Source of the DNA: Desulfovibrionales bacterium
Lineage (GTDB): Bacteria > Desulfobacterota > QYQD01
Reading direction: 5' to 3'
Assembly (NCBI GenBank): GCA_028715605.1
Contig: JAQURM010000001.1
Span: 488,001 to 552,000 of the forward strand
Length of the DNA: 64,000 bases
Both the position numbers and the translations under genes were made by a program. Of this stretch, positions 19,348 to 25,918 are shown one piece after another. How positions within the stretch are numbered: the stretch's first letter is position 1; the number at the start of each line of letters is the position of its first letter. The notes under the pieces are model-generated. The model worked only from the letters and a program-made list of their open reading frames with translations, was not told where the DNA came from and did no database searches.

Positions 19348-20808
19348 GTGCGAACAGAGCCACGGATACCATTTGAAAGTAAGGTCGTCTTCAGTTGTCA
19401 GAATCAAGCCGTATCCGGGTCCATTACCAACCTCAGTTTGAAAGGTATCTTTATTAACGCCCATAATTGCCCCCCAAAACACTCTTTTATTGAACTTGCC
19501 CTGACGATGCCGTTCTTACCCGAGCCGCCTAATGTCATGGCTAAGGTAAAGAGAACGGATCATGGTGGATTTGCTGCCGAATTTTTTGGTATGAATCACG
19601 AGGTTGTTTCCTCTATATGGTCCTTTGTTTGTGCCCGGCTCACATCATTAAATAATTGTCCATACTGTGGTATGCCTGTCGGGGATAAACAGTCTTCCCA
19701 TTGTCCTCACTGCACCTATTTACTATCCTTTGATGACCCGGACTATTTTGAAAAACGTGATACGGCTATCACCAGGAAGGGCCTTATAGATTTCATCGGG
19801 AAGCTTTCCGATCCAGAAGTCCACGCCATCGCCAGAACCATAAGAAGATACCTTTTGGGGCGTAATACTGAGATATCTGGCAATAGCGACGAAGAGATGG
19901 TCGGGACCTGTGATAAGATGAGGACTGTATTTCATTTGATTCGTAAGGTGGCCACAGCAGACGTACCTGTCCTGATTATTGGCGAAACAGGCACGGGCAA
20001 AGAGATGACGGCCAGGGCTATTCATGAAAGGAGCCTTAGGCAAAGCGGCCCGTTTATTCCCATAAATTGTGGGGCTATCCCTAAAGACCTCCTGGAGTCG
20101 GAATTATTTGGCCATGAAAAAGGGGCGTTTACCGGGGCTAAGAGGCAGGTGCGGGGCCGCATTGAGTATGCTGCGGGTGGCACCCTTTTCTTAGATGAAG
20201 TGGGAGAGCTACCCCCACCCCTCCAGGTAAAACTTTTACGGTTTCTGGAGGATTACCGGATCGAGAGAGTGGGCGGCCGGGAGAGCATCCAAGTCGATTT
20301 ACGTATCATCGCCGCTACCAATCGCGACCTTGAAAAGGATATCGCCGAAGGTCGTTTCCGGGAAGATCTCTTTTATAGATTAAACGTCGTCACGATTCAC
20401 ATGCCGGCCTTGTGCGAACGGGGAGAGGACATCGTTATTATGGCGGAAATATTCCTGCGTAAGTATGCCCAAACGGCAGGCAAAAACATAGGTGGTTTTA
20501 CCCGTGAGGCATTGACTGCCCTTAAGACTCACCACTGGCCGGGTAATGTCCGGGAGCTTGTCAACCGTATAAGACGGGCTGCCGTAATGGCGGAACAACG
20601 TTGGATAACCCCGGATAATCTGGAACTTGCGATTGGCCAGGATCAAGGGACAGGGCTTAAGGAAGCCAGTAAGCTTTTTGAGCATAACTTAATAAAAGAG
20701 ACCCTGGGAAGGCATGAAGGTAAAATCAGCCAAACAGCCAAGACCCTTAAAATCAGCCGTTCCGAAATGTACTACCTGCTGAAAAAACACGGTATTCAGC
20801 GGGCCTAA
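19348..20808 (+). CDS. Sigma-54 transcriptional activator with N-terminal PilZ domain
   Basis: A 486-residue regulator. Residues 1-95 form a PilZ domain with both cyclic-di-GMP motifs: R2-TEP-R6 (RxxxR) and N28-LSLK-G33 (NxSxxG). A zinc-ribbon-like segment follows (Cys104, 107, 119, 122). The AAA+ domain has Walker A GETGTGKE (212-219), the sigma-54-contacting GAFTGA loop (259-264) and Walker B TLFLDEVGE. A Fis-type HTH ends the protein (SQTAKTLKISRSEMYYLLKK). GTG start behind GGGAGGG. No receiver domain, so the PilZ module is the likely sensor. It immediately precedes the amyloid-like operon and its sigma-54 promoter. Confidence 0.93.
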   Translation: MRTEPRIPFESKVVFSCQNQAVSGSITNLSLKGIFINAHNCPPKHSFIELALTMPFLPEPPNVMAKVKRTDHGGFAAEFFGMNHEVVSSIWSFVCARLTSLNNCPYCGMPVGDKQSSHCPHCTYLLSFDDPDYFEKRDTAITRKGLIDFIGKLSDPEVHAIARTIRRYLLGRNTEISGNSDEEMVGTCDKMRTVFHLIRKVATADVPVLIIGETGTGKEMTARAIHERSLRQSGPFIPINCGAIPKDLLESELFGHEKGAFTGAKRQVRGRIEYAAGGTLFLDEVGELPPPLQVKLLRFLEDYRIERVGGRESIQVDLRIIAATNRDLEKDIAEGRFREDLFYRLNVVTIHMPALCERGEDIVIMAEIFLRKYAQTAGKNIGGFTREALTALKTHHWPGNVRELVNRIRRAAVMAEQRWITPDNLELAIGQDQGTGLKEASKLFEHNLIKETLGRHEGKISQTAKTLKISRSEMYYLLKKHGIQRA

Positions 20809-20945: not shown

Positions 20946-21170
20946 TTGTTTCCATCCTCCTTTATGAGTCAATAGCTCATAAACTTTTTGATGTTACCAG
21001 CTAATCAATAATAATTGAATCTATGTTCAAAACTTAGAACCCGTAACCAATTGATATAGTTTCATTTATATCATCACGGGGGAAAGCGTATAAACATTAG
21101 AACACTTTAGAGGGGGTGAAGAACGACCGGCTATGATACAAATATACGTAAAATCAATGAATTAAGAAGT

Positions 21171-21186
21171 TGGCATCCTCTTTGCG
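21171..21186 (+). promoter_or_regulatory. Sigma-54 promoter of the amyloid-like operon
   Basis: TGGCAT, CCTCT, TTGCG. The GG/GC spacing is exact and only one core position departs from TGGCAC-N5-TTGCW besides the last base. Transcription would start near 21196, just before the AAGGAGGG ribosome site of the first gene (GTG 21214). The upstream 20946-21170 is AT-rich and is where activator sites would be expected; I could not define them. Confidence 0.75.
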
Positions 21187-21213: not shown

Positions 21214-21531
21214 GTGAAGAAAGTGGTAGCAGGTCTAATCTTTCTTGCTTCGCTTTCAGCGTTTGCGGCTTTGGCCCAGGAAAGCGGCGATGCAGCGTCC
21301 TTGTTGGGCGAAAAAATTGTCTGCCTTGAGGACGCCGAGTTGCGTCGTATAGCCGGCCGCGGCTTTAGACCCGCCCTGCAGCAGGGTGAAGTCTCCCGGA
21401 TCATCCTCTGGGATGAATGGCGGGCAAAAGGCGATAACGCAAACGCCACCGTTGCCCCTCGGGATATGGGCGCTACGGGAGGTGCGACTGTATCCATATC
21501 GATTAGTTCAGCAAAGAAGGGGGGGATGTAG
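21214..21531 (+). CDS. Small exported protein with double-glycine-like motif
   Basis: A 105-residue protein of unknown family. A clear signal peptide (1-21, ending FAALA-Q) is followed by LEDAELRRIAGRGF (residues 38-51), which looks like the E-L-x-x-I/V-x-G-G leader motif cut by C39 peptidases, with Arg between the glycines. The C-terminus is rich in Ala, Gly and Ser and ends in a beta-prone VSISISS. GTG start behind AAGGAGGG. It is the first gene after the sigma-54 promoter and belongs with the C39 peptidase and amyloid-like proteins downstream. Confidence 0.75.
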   Translation: MKKVVAGLIFLASLSAFAALAQESGDAASLLGEKIVCLEDAELRRIAGRGFRPALQQGEVSRIILWDEWRAKGDNANATVAPRDMGATGGATVSISISSAKKGGM

Positions 21532-21611
21532 GAAGCGGGAAAAAGTAGGAAAATTGATAACATCTGAATTTAGTGAATGGCAGAAAACCAAAAAATCGCA
21601 AGGAGGAGAGT

Positions 21612-22493
21612 ATGAAGAAATCGTTAATAGTATTGGTCGCCATGGCCTTTGTTCTGGCCCTGAGCCTGCCGGCCCTGGCGGATGTGGGGGTAACGGGGAC
21701 GGTTACCGTGTCAAAAGACAAAGTGGTGACCGAGACAGTCGACATCGAAAAGGCCCATTACATCGGGGTGAAACAGACTGCTACCCCGACGCATTCTGCT
21801 GAGGCTTCAGCAGTAAAAAATGATGTAAATACGATGAATCAAGTTAATGAATCACCCATTCCGGCTGAACCACCTGTATATATCTACAACGAGATCAACG
21901 AAACGTGGCAGCTTGATCCCAACCATCCGGGTAAGGCCGCAGTACCAATAACAAAAGGCGCCGTAATTAATACGGGCGTTGGCAATGATTCTGCCGGGGT
22001 AGTAGGGATCAACCAGTCTCCGGGCAGTCTGAACAATCAGGGGAATGCCACCTCTGTCTCTATGGCCGCTGACGGCAACGCTTTTCTCCACGCCGAATCG
22101 GCTGCCGAGAAGAAAAACGGCATAGTGGGGGAAAACGGGAGCGGAAATAGCGTAACTGTCAATGAAATTACTCGGCAGAACACGATAGATGATTCTCTTA
22201 AGGGTGTGGCTGGGATCCTGGGAGTAAACCAGTCTGCAGGCAGTATGAACAACCAGGACAATGCCGCCAGCATGGCTGTGGGGTCCATGTCTATGGCCGC
22301 CCTGTCTGAGGCGGACCTGGGGATGGTCAACAGCGGCAATTGTAGCATGGAAGTCGCAGTGACATTAGCAGACACCCTGGCCAATAATGCCCTCTCCGGG
22401 GCCGACGGCATCGTGGGCGTCAACCAGTCTTCGGGCTGTATGAACAACCAGGCCAATGTCGTGGCCGTCTGTGCAGTTTCTAGCCCGTTCTAA
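21612..22493 (+). CDS. Amyloid-like repeat protein 1 (FapB/FapC-like)
   Basis: A 293-residue secreted protein with a signal peptide (1-23, ALSLPALA-D). Three ~23-residue repeats begin at about 129, 200 and 266, spaced ~70 residues. Each follows G-[IV]-[IVL]-G-[IV]-N-Q-S-x-G-x-[LM]-N-N-Q-x-N. Repeats of the GVN-x3-G-x2-N-x-Q-x-N type are typical of Fap functional amyloids of Pseudomonas. The third repeat has Cys276, with Cys287 near the end. The ATG follows AGGAGGAG. A strong hairpin lies just downstream, suggesting high expression of this subunit. Confidence 0.82.
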   Translation: MKKSLIVLVAMAFVLALSLPALADVGVTGTVTVSKDKVVTETVDIEKAHYIGVKQTATPTHSAEASAVKNDVNTMNQVNESPIPAEPPVYIYNEINETWQLDPNHPGKAAVPITKGAVINTGVGNDSAGVVGINQSPGSLNNQGNATSVSMAADGNAFLHAESAAEKKNGIVGENGSGNSVTVNEITRQNTIDDSLKGVAGILGVNQSAGSMNNQDNAASMAVGSMSMAALSEADLGMVNSGNCSMEVAVTLADTLANNALSGADGIVGVNQSSGCMNNQANVVAVCAVSSPF

Positions 22494-22523
22494 GATGTCT
22501 TATCGTTTGTGAAACGTGAAACT

Positions 22524-22564
22524 GGAGGCGAGGGAAGGGGGGGTTGTCCCCTTCCCTCGCCTCC
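22524..22564. terminator. 17-bp perfect hairpin after amyloid-like gene 1
   Basis: GGAGGCGAGGGAAGGGG pairs perfectly with CCCCTTCCCTCGCCTCC around a seven-base loop. No U-tract follows, so it may be a partial terminator or an mRNA-stabilising hairpin separating the structural gene from the peptidase and export genes. Confidence 0.7.
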
Positions 22565-22585
22565 TAAGTAAGTTATCGGTAATTA

Positions 22586-22672
22586 TGTCATTGCGAACGA
22601 AGTGAAGCAATCTCCAGCGAGATTGCTTCGTCGTTCCCCAGAGGTGAACTCCTCGCAATGACAAGCTGGATA
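22586..22672. repeat. Inverted repeat 'cattgcgaacgaag...cttcgtcg...cgcaatgac'
   Basis: GTCATTGCGAACGAAGTGAA and AGCAATCT on the left face AGATTGCTTCGTCG and CTCGCAATGAC on the right. It resembles REP-like intergenic repeats widespread in deltaproteobacterial and other genomes. Confidence 0.7.
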
Positions 22673-22706
22673 AAATTTTTAATCTTTGAGAGTCCTTAAA
22701 CAGGCG

Positions 22707-23444
22707 ATGAGAAGAAGTAATAAAATATCAGCCCTTACAGGTCTTATTTTTATTCTATTATGCGCCTTGCACTCATCTGCCTGGGCAGGCACTGTGGTAG
22801 TTCGGATGATGTACCGCGGACCGGCCATCTATAAGAAAGTTATCAGTCTGCGAGAAAAAAAGTTCATCAAGATAGTCCCGCAAAGTAAGGATTATAGTTG
22901 TGGCGCAGCGGCCATGGCCACCATTTTATCCTACCAGTTTGGCAAGGAGACTTCGGAAACGGATGCCATGCAGGGTCTGCTGGAGGTCGCAGACCTTGAG
23001 GTGGTAAAGAAAAAGGGTTTTTCACTTTTGGATTTGAAAAGGTATGCGGAGAATATAGGTTACCGGGCCGGCGGTTTCAAGGTCAAGGCCGACCTGCTCC
23101 CAAACATAAACAAACCGACGATTGTCCTCATCGATGTCCGGGGGTATTCGCATTTTGTAGTCCTGAAGGGCGTACGCGGGGAGAACGTCTTCCTGGCTGA
23201 TCCGGCTTGGGGGAACCGCATTATGAATCTCGCGGATTTTTTAAAGGCATGGAACGGCATTGTCTTCGCTTTTGACGGCCCAAAGCTGGCTGATGCCACC
23301 GGGCTGGGGTGCGAAGACCGGGAGGCTATGCCGGTGGACTGTATTCTCCGAATGAAAAGCCTGGACAGCGCCGGACGATTCATCATGGATCCTTCCCAGC
23401 AGAGCGCCATTTTTAAGACCATTTATCGGGACAGCTTGTTATGA
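22707..23444 (+). CDS. C39-family peptidase, FapD-like
   Basis: A 245-residue exported protein with a signal peptide (about 1-27, HSSAWA-G). The C39 fold residues are all present: Gln59 in VPQSKDYSC, catalytic Cys65, His149 in GYSHFVVLKG, and Asp165 in LADPAWG. It has no ABC transporter part, unlike bacteriocin exporters, but like FapD, the periplasmic C39 protein of Fap amyloid operons. I infer it trims one or more co-encoded proteins, two of which carry double-glycine-like motifs. ATG 22707 fits the signal peptide; a TTG seven codons upstream is possible. Its stop overlaps the next gene. Confidence 0.87.
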   Translation: MRRSNKISALTGLIFILLCALHSSAWAGTVVVRMMYRGPAIYKKVISLREKKFIKIVPQSKDYSCGAAAMATILSYQFGKETSETDAMQGLLEVADLEVVKKKGFSLLDLKRYAENIGYRAGGFKVKADLLPNINKPTIVLIDVRGYSHFVVLKGVRGENVFLADPAWGNRIMNLADFLKAWNGIVFAFDGPKLADATGLGCEDREAMPVDCILRMKSLDSAGRFIMDPSQQSAIFKTIYRDSLL

Positions 23445-24034
23445 CGATGAAAATACATAGGTTGCAATTGGCGATAGTGGTGTGGAGTATAGTCCTTAAC
23501 CTCCTATTCCCTCACGCGCTAACGGCCGGTCCACCAAGTGATCTGTTGGGAGTGGAGGCCGAGGCTGTGCCCGAAGAGGAACTGGGAGAAGTGCGGGGTG
23601 GCTATGCCGGTTTCTATTTCGCTTTTGACTTCTCCGGATACTGGAACAATACGAGCGGATGGGGAAGCACAGGCACGGCGCAAAGCTCTGCAACCTATCA
23701 CAGCGATCTGGGGAATATTGATGTGGTAGTCAATGATACAACTTATAATAGTGGAGATGTCACTGTCGAGGCATCCTCTACAAGCAGCTCCACCACCATG
23801 CCTTTTTCTTCTCCGACCAGCACGACCTTGAGCACTGGAGATAAGGTCGTCAAGATGAGCGCCTTTGTGGGCGACATAAACCAGACCCAGGGGGTTATTC
23901 AGATCTGCCAGGTGCCCGGCAGCAACAACATAGTAACCACGGTTATGAACCTCCAGCTTACGGTGATAAACCTGAGCGATCCGTCCAAGATCGACCAGTT
24001 GTCGTCCATATTGCCCGGGCTGGTTGTGAATTGA
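23441..24034 (+). CDS. Secreted protein with double-glycine motif, possible FapE-like partner
   Basis: A 197-residue protein. Signal peptide (1-29, PHALTA-G), then PEEELGEVRGGYAGFYF, a good double-glycine leader motif (GG at 53-54). The remainder is Ser/Thr/Asn-rich and beta-prone, with KMSAFVGDINQTQGVIQI and VPGSNNIVTT. No named domain recognised. The ATG overlaps the peptidase stop by four bases, so the two are co-translated. Its place between the FapD-like peptidase and a second repeat protein resembles FapE, but that is only positional inference. Confidence 0.7.
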   Translation: MTMKIHRLQLAIVVWSIVLNLLFPHALTAGPPSDLLGVEAEAVPEEELGEVRGGYAGFYFAFDFSGYWNNTSGWGSTGTAQSSATYHSDLGNIDVVVNDTTYNSGDVTVEASSTSSSTTMPFSSPTSTTLSTGDKVVKMSAFVGDINQTQGVIQICQVPGSNNIVTTVMNLQLTVINLSDPSKIDQLSSILPGLVVN

Positions 24035-24062: not shown

Positions 24063-24857
24063 ATGAGCACAAAAGACTTCAGGACAGTATTAAGAGTAAC
24101 GGTTTTTGCTTGTATAATTTTACTATTTTCATGGTTACCAGCCAGCGCGGATATATCGGATACTATAACTGATACCACCGCCACCACCGTTACGGAAGAG
24201 ACGACTATCGCCACGGATATTGTCGTTGGTGTCAGTCAAACGGCTGAGGTTGACCACTCGGCGGCCAGTTCCGGCACGGCTACGGGAACGAGTAATAATA
24301 ACCAGATAATCGAGAGCACAGGGATAGAAAAATCTGCCGATATCTGGGCCGATTCATTAAGCGGCTCAAGCGGTATTATCGGCATTAATCAGGCCCCCGG
24401 AACGTTGAACAATCAAGGGAGCGCCGTGAATGTCACCTATGCCACCGAGGCTTCAGATACCCTACTCCAAGCCACGACGGCCTTGCAGAACCAGAGCTCT
24501 GGAAATGAACTAAGCGCCGACACTTCCGAGATAACTAATGAGATCCACGGCAATGCCTTTTACGGGGCCACGGGCATAATAACCGTCAATCAATCCGCCG
24601 GCAGCCTTAATAACCAGACCACACTGGTAAACCTTACCGTCGGCGCCAGTTCGGCCGTTTCTCTTTCCGATGCCGACCTCGGTATGCTCAATGCCAATAA
24701 TAAAGTCATGGACGCAGGCGTCTCGCGCACAGATAGCCTGAGCACCTTTGCCCTGCAAGGGGCTAAGGGTATTATCTCCATCAACCAGTCTTCCGGGTGT
24801 CTCAACCACCAGGTTAATGCCATCTCCGTATCCGTGCGAGAATTTACTTTATATTAA
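24063..24857 (+). CDS. Amyloid-like repeat protein 2 (FapB/FapC-like)
   Basis: A 264-residue paralogue of the protein at 21612. Signal peptide 1-29 (WLPASA-D), a Thr-rich segment (32-52), then three repeats at about 103, 170 and 235: GIIGINQAPGTLNNQ, GIITVNQSAGSLNNQ and GIISINQSSGCLNHQ. As in its partner, only the third repeat has a Cys (246). Before it both proteins share L-S-[ED]-A-D-L-G-M-[VL]-N. One may nucleate and the other build the fibre, as with FapB and FapC; which is which cannot be told. Confidence 0.8.
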   Translation: MSTKDFRTVLRVTVFACIILLFSWLPASADISDTITDTTATTVTEETTIATDIVVGVSQTAEVDHSAASSGTATGTSNNNQIIESTGIEKSADIWADSLSGSSGIIGINQAPGTLNNQGSAVNVTYATEASDTLLQATTALQNQSSGNELSADTSEITNEIHGNAFYGATGIITVNQSAGSLNNQTTLVNLTVGASSAVSLSDADLGMLNANNKVMDAGVSRTDSLSTFALQGAKGIISINQSSGCLNHQVNAISVSVREFTLY

Positions 24858-24919: not shown

Positions 24920-25918
24920 GTGCTACACAAAACCCTTGCCTTTTTGTTTGTTATCTTGGTCTGTTCATCTATATCTCCCCTTTATGCCCTGGCCCAGCAA
25001 GAGGAACGAAAGCCCGTCCCCGGCGTCTCCGTAGAAAAAGGCGGGGCGCTCCTTCCCACGGGGCGATTTGTGCTGGAACCGGCATTTCAATATGCCCATA
25101 ACTCCAGCAAGCAGCTTGTTTCCATAAGCGGCTTTAGCATATTCAATGCCATTCTGATCGGCCGGATCGACCTGAAGGAGATCGAAAGAGATATCTATAT
25201 ACCTTCCATAACGGCCCGGTTAGGTTTCAAGGACATGGAATTAAACGTCAAGGTGCCGTGGATGTACCGGAAAGATAAGGAGACAAACCCGGCCGAAGCA
25301 GGGGCGACTGTCTATTCCGCTGATGACAGCGGCCTTGGAGACGTCGAGGGGGGGTTTTATTATAGGCTGGTCAATGAGAACGGCGCTGTTCCGGATATCA
25401 TCCTTAGCCTGGGCGTCAAATCGGACACAGGACGTGATCCCTACGGGCTGCAAACTGAGACAGTCGGCGGCCAGTTACGCTACAAAGAGTTTCCGACAGG
25501 CACCGGGCACTGGGGTTATTCCGGAGGTCTGATCTTTGTTAAGACTACCGACCCCGCTATTGTATTCCTGAACCTGACGTACTTTTATAATGACTCCAGA
25601 GACATCGGAACAGAGAATGGCACATTTTATGGCGAGGTTGATCCCGGGGACAGCTTTGAATATAACATCGGCACCGTCGTCGCCCTGAACGAGAAGTTTT
25701 CCATGAACTTTACCCTTAACCAGCGCATTACCGGCAAGACTGTACAAGGCGGTTCAGAAATAGCAGATAGTGATCTTAATGCCATTTCTTTTAACCTGGG
25801 CGGCACCTATGCTATCTCTAAACGATTCTCTGTAGATATGACCGCCGGGATTGGGCTGACCTCCGATGCCAACGATGTGACGTTACTGTTACGAATACCC
25901 ATTAATTTTGAATTCTAA
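24920..25918 (+). CDS. Outer-membrane beta-barrel, possible FapF-like exporter
   Basis: A 332-residue protein. Signal peptide 1-25 (LYALA-Q), then alternating beta-strands rich in Gly and aromatics, ending in LLLRIPINFEF with a terminal Phe typical of barrels recognised by the BAM complex. The overall style resembles the phenol-pathway MetA/transporter group to which FapF-like secretion barrels show similarity. It closes the operon, as fapF does, so I infer it exports the repeat proteins. There is no obvious N-terminal coiled coil of the FapF kind. GTG start behind AGAAAGGAT. Confidence 0.72.
   Translation: MLHKTLAFLFVILVCSSISPLYALAQQEERKPVPGVSVEKGGALLPTGRFVLEPAFQYAHNSSKQLVSISGFSIFNAILIGRIDLKEIERDIYIPSITARLGFKDMELNVKVPWMYRKDKETNPAEAGATVYSADDSGLGDVEGGFYYRLVNENGAVPDIILSLGVKSDTGRDPYGLQTETVGGQLRYKEFPTGTGHWGYSGGLIFVKTTDPAIVFLNLTYFYNDSRDIGTENGTFYGEVDPGDSFEYNIGTVVALNEKFSMNFTLNQRITGKTVQGGSEIADSDLNAISFNLGGTYAISKRFSVDMTAGIGLTSDANDVTLLLRIPINFEF

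Follow-up and report, generated by a model that had tools for sequence, protein, structure and literature searches.

Does a stand-alone C39 peptidase encoded in an amyloid operon recognize and cut its exported neighbours at leader-like sequences that lie behind their Sec signal peptides? The question is raised by a locus in a 64,000-nucleotide stretch of Desulfovibrionales DNA (the window), for which a preliminary description had pointed to double-glycine-like motifs in two exported proteins of 105 and 197 residues, and had suggested that the peptidase makes a second, periplasmic cut in them during amyloid assembly. Both ORFs and both motifs lie where that description had placed them, with the C39 ORF between the two (Table 1). 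In Pseudomonas, FapD is periplasmic and its Cys38 is essential for FapC secretion (Rouse et al. 2017, PMC5557850). FapD's target and recognition sequence were called unclear in 2017 (PMC5557850), and FapE had by then been suggested as its substrate from mass spectrometry, being the only Fap protein without N-terminal peptides (PMC5557850); a 2025 review still presents the processing of FapE and FapF by FapD as a supposition (PMC12822426).

A divergent Fap operon led by an additional gene

The window contains a divergent Fap amyloid operon: FapB/C-like subunit, FapD C39 peptidase, FapE-like protein, second FapB/C-like subunit and FapF-like channel, with the gene for the 105-residue protein in the lead. 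The features that mark Fap membership are present, namely a FapD with a Sec signal, FapB/FapC subunits with imperfect repeats, FapF and FapE; the NCBIfam matches of FapD, FapF and both FapB-type proteins all fall below the curated equivalog cut-offs. As in the Pseudomonas system (FapABCDEF), homologues of FapD, FapE, FapF and FapB/C are encoded in a single operon, and the canonical FapE likewise has the motif directly past its signal peptide. The window operon differs in its divergence, in having a FapB/C-like gene on either side of fapD-fapE, in the extra gene ahead, and in that no fapA is recognised: an NCBIfam profile search returned no FapA match for the 105-residue protein or any other operon protein. 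The FapA chaperone is optional in known Fap operons.

A sigma-54 pattern lies 35-195 bp 5′ of the gene for the 105-residue protein in the window and in six relatives (L013, L024, L029, L120, L124 and L129). Together with the adjacent upstream PilZ/sigma-54 activator, which is the probable regulator of the operon, this promoter suggests that the Fap operon is under c-di-GMP-linked control.

Table 1. Features of the Fap locus (window coordinates), followed by FapA proteins of other loci (coordinates within each locus)
Feature	Position	Strand	Basis or remarks
PilZ domain, sigma-54 activator and Fis-type HTH	19348..20808	+	Pfam PF07238 2e-6, PF00158 2e-71, PF02954 6e-8
Sigma-54 -24/-12 promoter TTGGCATCCTCTTTGCG, 5′ of the gene for the 105-residue protein	21170..21186	+	Pattern match
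105-residue exported protein, encoded by the lead gene of the operon	21214..21531	+	Sec signal peptide ~1-21, predicted propeptide ~22-49, mature 50-105
C39-type motif LEDAELRRIAGR of the 105-residue protein	21325..21360	+	PCAT1/LahT-leader register; family conservation; predicted cut after R49
Second conserved block of the 105-residue family, RIILWDEW	21397..21420	+	Family alignment
FapB/FapC-like amyloid subunit, three repeats	21612..22493	+	NF058557 1e-13, NF058558 4e-11
FapD, stand-alone C39 cysteine peptidase, N-terminal Sec signal	22707..23444	+	PF03412 5e-23, NF058616 6e-57
Catalytic Cys65 codon tgt	22899..22901	+	Invariant residue of FapD (ATG 22707, stop 23444)
FapE-like exported protein, 197 residues	23441..24034	+	Sec signal peptide ~1-29, predicted propeptide ~30-54, mature 55-197
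C39-type motif VPEEELGEVRGG of the 197-residue protein	23567..23602	+	Family conservation; predicted cut between G54 and Y55
Second FapB/FapC-like amyloid subunit	24063..24857	+	NF058557 8e-15
FapF-like outer-membrane channel	24920..25918	+	NF058560 7e-57; PF13557 6e-11
FapA with mid-protein C39-like sequence, L125	4803-5255	-	
FapA with mid-protein C39-like sequence, L127	5262-5699	-	
FapA with mid-protein C39-like sequence, L156			
FapA with mid-protein C39-like sequence, L157			
FapA with mid-protein C39-like sequence, L158			

FapD is a C39 peptidase that stands alone

FapD comprises 245 residues with no domain besides C39, and is neither fused to nor partnered with an ABC transporter as in type 1 secretion and PCAT systems. 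It scores 81.9 bits against PF03412 (cut-off 22) and 192 bits against NF058616 (curated cut-off 330), and its residues Q59, C65, H149 and D165 are invariant in 66/66 homologues. An AF2 model (mean pLDDT 84) is closest, by Foldseek, to the C39 domains of PCAT1, ComA and LahT; the matching LahT domain is the one that was crystallised with its leader, and a sequence search agreed with this match. We also sought FapD residues that would separate AG-type from GG/GR-type substrates; the groups were uneven (9 versus 33) and confounded with phylogeny, and so we make no claim about specificity residues.

Two motifs in the register of C39 leaders

Complex structures of C39 domains with leaders define the consensus L(-12)xxxE(-8)L(-7)xxxxG(-2)G(-1), in which the residues at -12, -7 and -4 act as hydrophobic anchors (PMC6959990; PMC10885120); the -4 residue determines specificity (PMC6959990), and characterised leaders terminate in GG, GA or GS (PMC10885120). 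The motif of the 105-residue protein (L38-E39-D40-A41-E42-L43-R44-R45-I46-A47-G48-R49) reads in this register as L(-12)EDA-E(-8)-L(-7)-RR-I(-4)-A-G(-2)-R(-1), and that of the 197-residue protein (V43-P-E-E-E47-L48-G-E-V51-R52-G53-G54) as V(-12)PEE-E(-8)-L(-7)-GE-V(-4)-R-G(-2)-G(-1). Both end 25-28 residues past the likely signal-peptide cut. The 197-residue protein has every feature of a double-glycine leader (hydrophobic at -12, -7 and -4, acidic at -8, small at -2 and -1), and the 105-residue protein all but the last, its -1 residue being Arg. The motifs are real, and the form in which they had been proposed, ExELxxIxG[G/R], is better replaced by one defined by position (-12, -8, -7, -4, -2, -1).

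A loose version of the motif rule was dropped as too permissive (it accepted 55% of neighbouring ORFs, and was also common in shuffles) in favour of a strict positional form, which arises by chance in ~0.5% of shuffled signal-peptide ORFs. In the host genome (1.48 Mb of 2.56 Mb, or 58%), the strict motif occurs in 7/723 signal-peptide ORFs, as against 3.8 in shuffles; two of these seven are the 105- and 197-residue proteins, encoded 1.9 kb apart. The decisive evidence is conservation, by which we judge that the two motifs are not chance matches: in the alignment of homologues that the preliminary description had proposed as a check, the motif is found in every examined member of both families, as set out below.

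The 197-residue protein is a divergent FapE

A direct profile search gave no significant Pfam or NCBIfam match for the 197-residue protein. A profile-profile comparison (hhalign) with canonical FapE gave a probability of 96.9% (E 2e-10); from this match and from the position of its gene, which follows fapD and precedes another fap gene, we identify it as FapE. An AF2 model was of low confidence (pLDDT 44) and uninformative. An alignment of the protein with 11 relatives has 11 invariant columns, which include E47, R52, G53 and G54. More broadly, [E/D/Q/S][L/M]xxxRG[G/R/K] is retained in each of the 29 FapE relatives examined, which range from Pseudomonas-type (a label assigned by FapE model score) to Thermodesulfobacteriota: the Arg and Gly are invariant, L/M(-7) is present in 29/29 and E(-8) in 26/29, position -1 is G, R or K, and these positions rank among the most conserved of the protein. 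Canonical FapE proteins, a set found with the NCBIfam model and including seven above its cut-off, carry ELKDAEMAELRGRYV and similar sequences directly past the signal peptide; in the Aeromonas caviae FapE the motif is LADGELAHLRGRY.

The 105-residue protein represents an unnamed family

The 105-residue protein matches nothing in Pfam or NCBIfam, and we take it, from its homologues, as the founder of an unnamed family. Its homologues in other phyla have nothing in common beyond the signal peptide, the motif and a [VI]I[IL]WDE block, and the motif register is kept across phyla in all members examined. At L129, where genes from FapB to FapF are present, the homologue is the first gene and precedes a separate FapA-like gene. 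The possibility that the 105-residue protein is itself FapA was rejected, as it has no FapA-model match and L129 has both genes; the FapA-like gene at L129 itself has no FapA-model match.

At another locus (L018, G057 C30 12000-26000), FapD-like and FapF-like genes accompany three motif-type exported proteins, of which one is a homologue of the 105-residue protein with RIILWDE and one has 630 residues; no FapB/C gene was noticed there, and the locus may encode a Fap-like system that handles other cargo.

Similar sequences within FapA and the amyloid subunits

Five FapA proteins (Table 1) carry a C39-like sequence in the same register in mid-protein (ELSDRDIGGISSG, DELSDEDYAGMGAG, EMTDEDFATMSSG), which might make FapA a further protein that FapD binds or cuts. 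The FapB/C-like subunits of the window (21612-22493 and 24063-24857) and of L013, L014, L024, L027 and L029 share a conserved ALSEADLGxVN(x)GN in the linker of repeats 2 and 3; in the first window subunit this linker contains ALSEADLGMVNSGN. The linker sequence fits the leader register from -12 to -4, and often at -1, without Gly or Ala at -2.

The motif accompanies FapD-like peptidases in many phyla

A FapD-based genome scan yielded 80 loci with stand-alone FapD-like peptidases, distributed over Pseudomonadota, Thermodesulfobacteriota, Nitrospinota, Methylomirabilota, Omnitrophota, Verrucomicrobia and one Kuenenia MAG. With ORFs called mechanically and signal peptides by a crude, simple rule, 83 of the 316 signal-peptide ORFs on the same strand and no more than 3.5 kb from the C39 gene had the strict motif; shuffled sets gave 1.6 on average and 6 at most, and the motif was present in 8/143 antisense and 3/147 distant ORFs. 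In its strict form the motif occurs at 47/75 loci; the loci were chosen by FapD similarity and are related by ancestry, and so the motif counts are not independent events. Most motifs end 16-39 residues past the predicted signal-peptide cut, and 80 distinct motifs give the consensus L-[TS]-D-x-[QE]-[ML]-D-x-V-[TS]-A-G. The cargo sequences that follow the motif are for the most part unrelated (similar in 83/3349 between-locus pairs), and so the element that is shared is the leader. A shared leader over unrelated cargo is, at the level of sequence, what would be expected of substrates of one kind of processing enzyme.

At several of the motif loci tested, a FapF-like gene lies near the C39 gene (E 1.5e-9 to 2e-40). 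The enrichment beside FapD-like C39 genes bears out the link to this peptidase that had been suggested; the association reaches beyond amyloid assembly, because at many loci there is a FapF-like channel and no FapB/C subunits were seen. At L017 (G039 C44), a 507-residue FapD-like peptidase is clustered with several DUF6160-like exported proteins, every one of which has a leader such as LEDEDLSEVTGQ.

A model for periplasmic leader processing, and its alternatives

We consider it probable that FapD, encoded next to both proteins, recognizes and cleaves them at the two motifs; most likely it trims a short propeptide from each once Sec has delivered them to the periplasm. Beside what was observed (the motifs, their conservation and register, their linkage to stand-alone C39 genes, the intact catalytic site and the FapE homology), we infer a cut, its bond, the order of events and the role of the mature products as follows. 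Both proteins would cross the inner membrane via Sec and lose their signal peptides, exposing propeptides of 25-28 residues, the last 12 residues of which would form a short helix that fits the C39 leader groove (anchors at -12, -7 and -4) and positions Gly(-2)-Gly/Arg(-1) at Cys65 of FapD. Cleavage would release mature FapE starting at Tyr55 and a small product of the 105-residue protein starting at Gly50; mature FapE, itself exported in a FapF-dependent manner, would then contribute to exporting and anchoring the FapB/C fibre, processes that likewise depend on FapF. In this way the periplasm would host a form of double-glycine leader processing that otherwise takes place at the cytosolic side of an ABC transporter. 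The precise bond to be cut is uncertain, because position -1 is often Arg, Lys or Gln, unlike the GG, GA or GS of characterised C39 leaders. The published gap in FapE peptides extends to residue ~70 (PMC5557850), and the cut predicted for Pseudomonas-type FapE, at residue ~40 of 247, falls short of its end: the missing peptides would cover the whole propeptide, and the absence of residues 41-69 would have to be explained otherwise, for instance by a short tryptic peptide and a long hydrophobic one.

The main rival reading, which we regard as unlikely, is that FapD (or a FapD-FapF pair) binds the motif without cutting and reads it as a signal for docking or sorting, in the manner of the C39-like chaperone domains of RTX transporters. 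The look-alikes in mid-FapA and in the FapB/C linkers would suit such a signal, as would the coverage of FapA-C throughout by mass spectrometry (PMC5557850) and a -1 residue that is not Gly in every case. Set against these points are the invariance of Gln, Cys, His and Asp in all FapD homologues, unlike chaperone-type C39-like domains; the loss of secretion when Pseudomonas Cys38 is changed to Ala, together with the missing N-terminus of FapE (PMC5557850); and the retention of Gly/Ala at -2, as cleavage needs, in FapE, the 105-residue family and the small-protein families.

Less probable by a clear margin of judgement is that the motif serves the structure of the FapE-type fold and resembles C39 leaders by coincidence: the Arg at -3 of FapE is also invariant, though C39 leaders do not require Arg there, yet the same register recurs, always next to a stand-alone C39 gene, in proteins otherwise unrelated to FapE (the 105-residue family, FilA/DUF6160 and numerous small exported ones). 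We give slightly less credence still to use of the motif by another protease or a cytosolic ABC-linked C39. ABC-linked C39 domains are the usual cutters of double-glycine leaders; here the motif follows a Sec signal in both proteins and shows enrichment next to C39 genes that stand alone. No ABC-linked C39 was found in the host genome, and because its sole other C39 is a PA2778-family protein, no ABC-linked enzyme competes; the cytosolic ABC-C39 route was rejected on these grounds.

Relation to known C39 systems

With PCAT1, ComA and LahT and their double-glycine leaders, the window system shares the C39 fold, the catalytic residues and the leader register -12/-8/-7/-4/-2; it differs in that it lacks an ABC transporter, relies on Sec to bring both peptidase and substrates to the periplasm, and often has Arg, Lys or Gln at -1. 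The Fil system of Acinetobacter (FilA-FilB-FilC) is another parallel: FilB is a stand-alone C39, FilC resembles FapF, and in FilA a signal peptide is followed by MDDAALSAATGQ. In that system no FapB/C subunits were seen, the cargo is unrelated to FapE, and the motif ends in GQ. A related protein of another locus matches both DUF6160 and FilA. The host genome also has a PA2778/PA2779 pair, at L135 2912-3971 (G000 contig C3 near 100 kb), in which a PA2778-family cysteine peptidase of C39 type adjoins a PA2779-family protein containing AGG (SERITAGGDG, ahead of a membrane helix), both of them exported. This peptidase belongs to another C39 subfamily; in its partner the -12/-8/-7/-4 register is absent and the membrane helix is C-terminal.

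In the literature searched, which included few subscription journals, we found no description of a C39-type motif in FapE, FilA/FilB, DUF6160 or a periplasmic C39 context, nor of the breadth of this recognition motif or of the 105-residue family; the suspected processing of FapE is already published.

FapD is essential for Fap amyloid secretion, and a motif fixed in place in every FapE examined makes its recognition testable by single-residue changes. On balance, we lean towards a widespread two-step Gram-negative export route, in which Sec export would be followed by periplasmic maturation, by FapD/FilB-type C39 peptidases, of a leader behind the signal peptide, and by passage through a FapF/FilC-type channel; Fap amyloid would be one cargo set among many, and the 105-residue family an unnamed Fap component. 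If this is true, the motif near FapD-like peptidases in many phyla, including that of Acinetobacter FilA, would mark a general periplasmic maturation route, and the cargo of such a route would be predictable from sequence.
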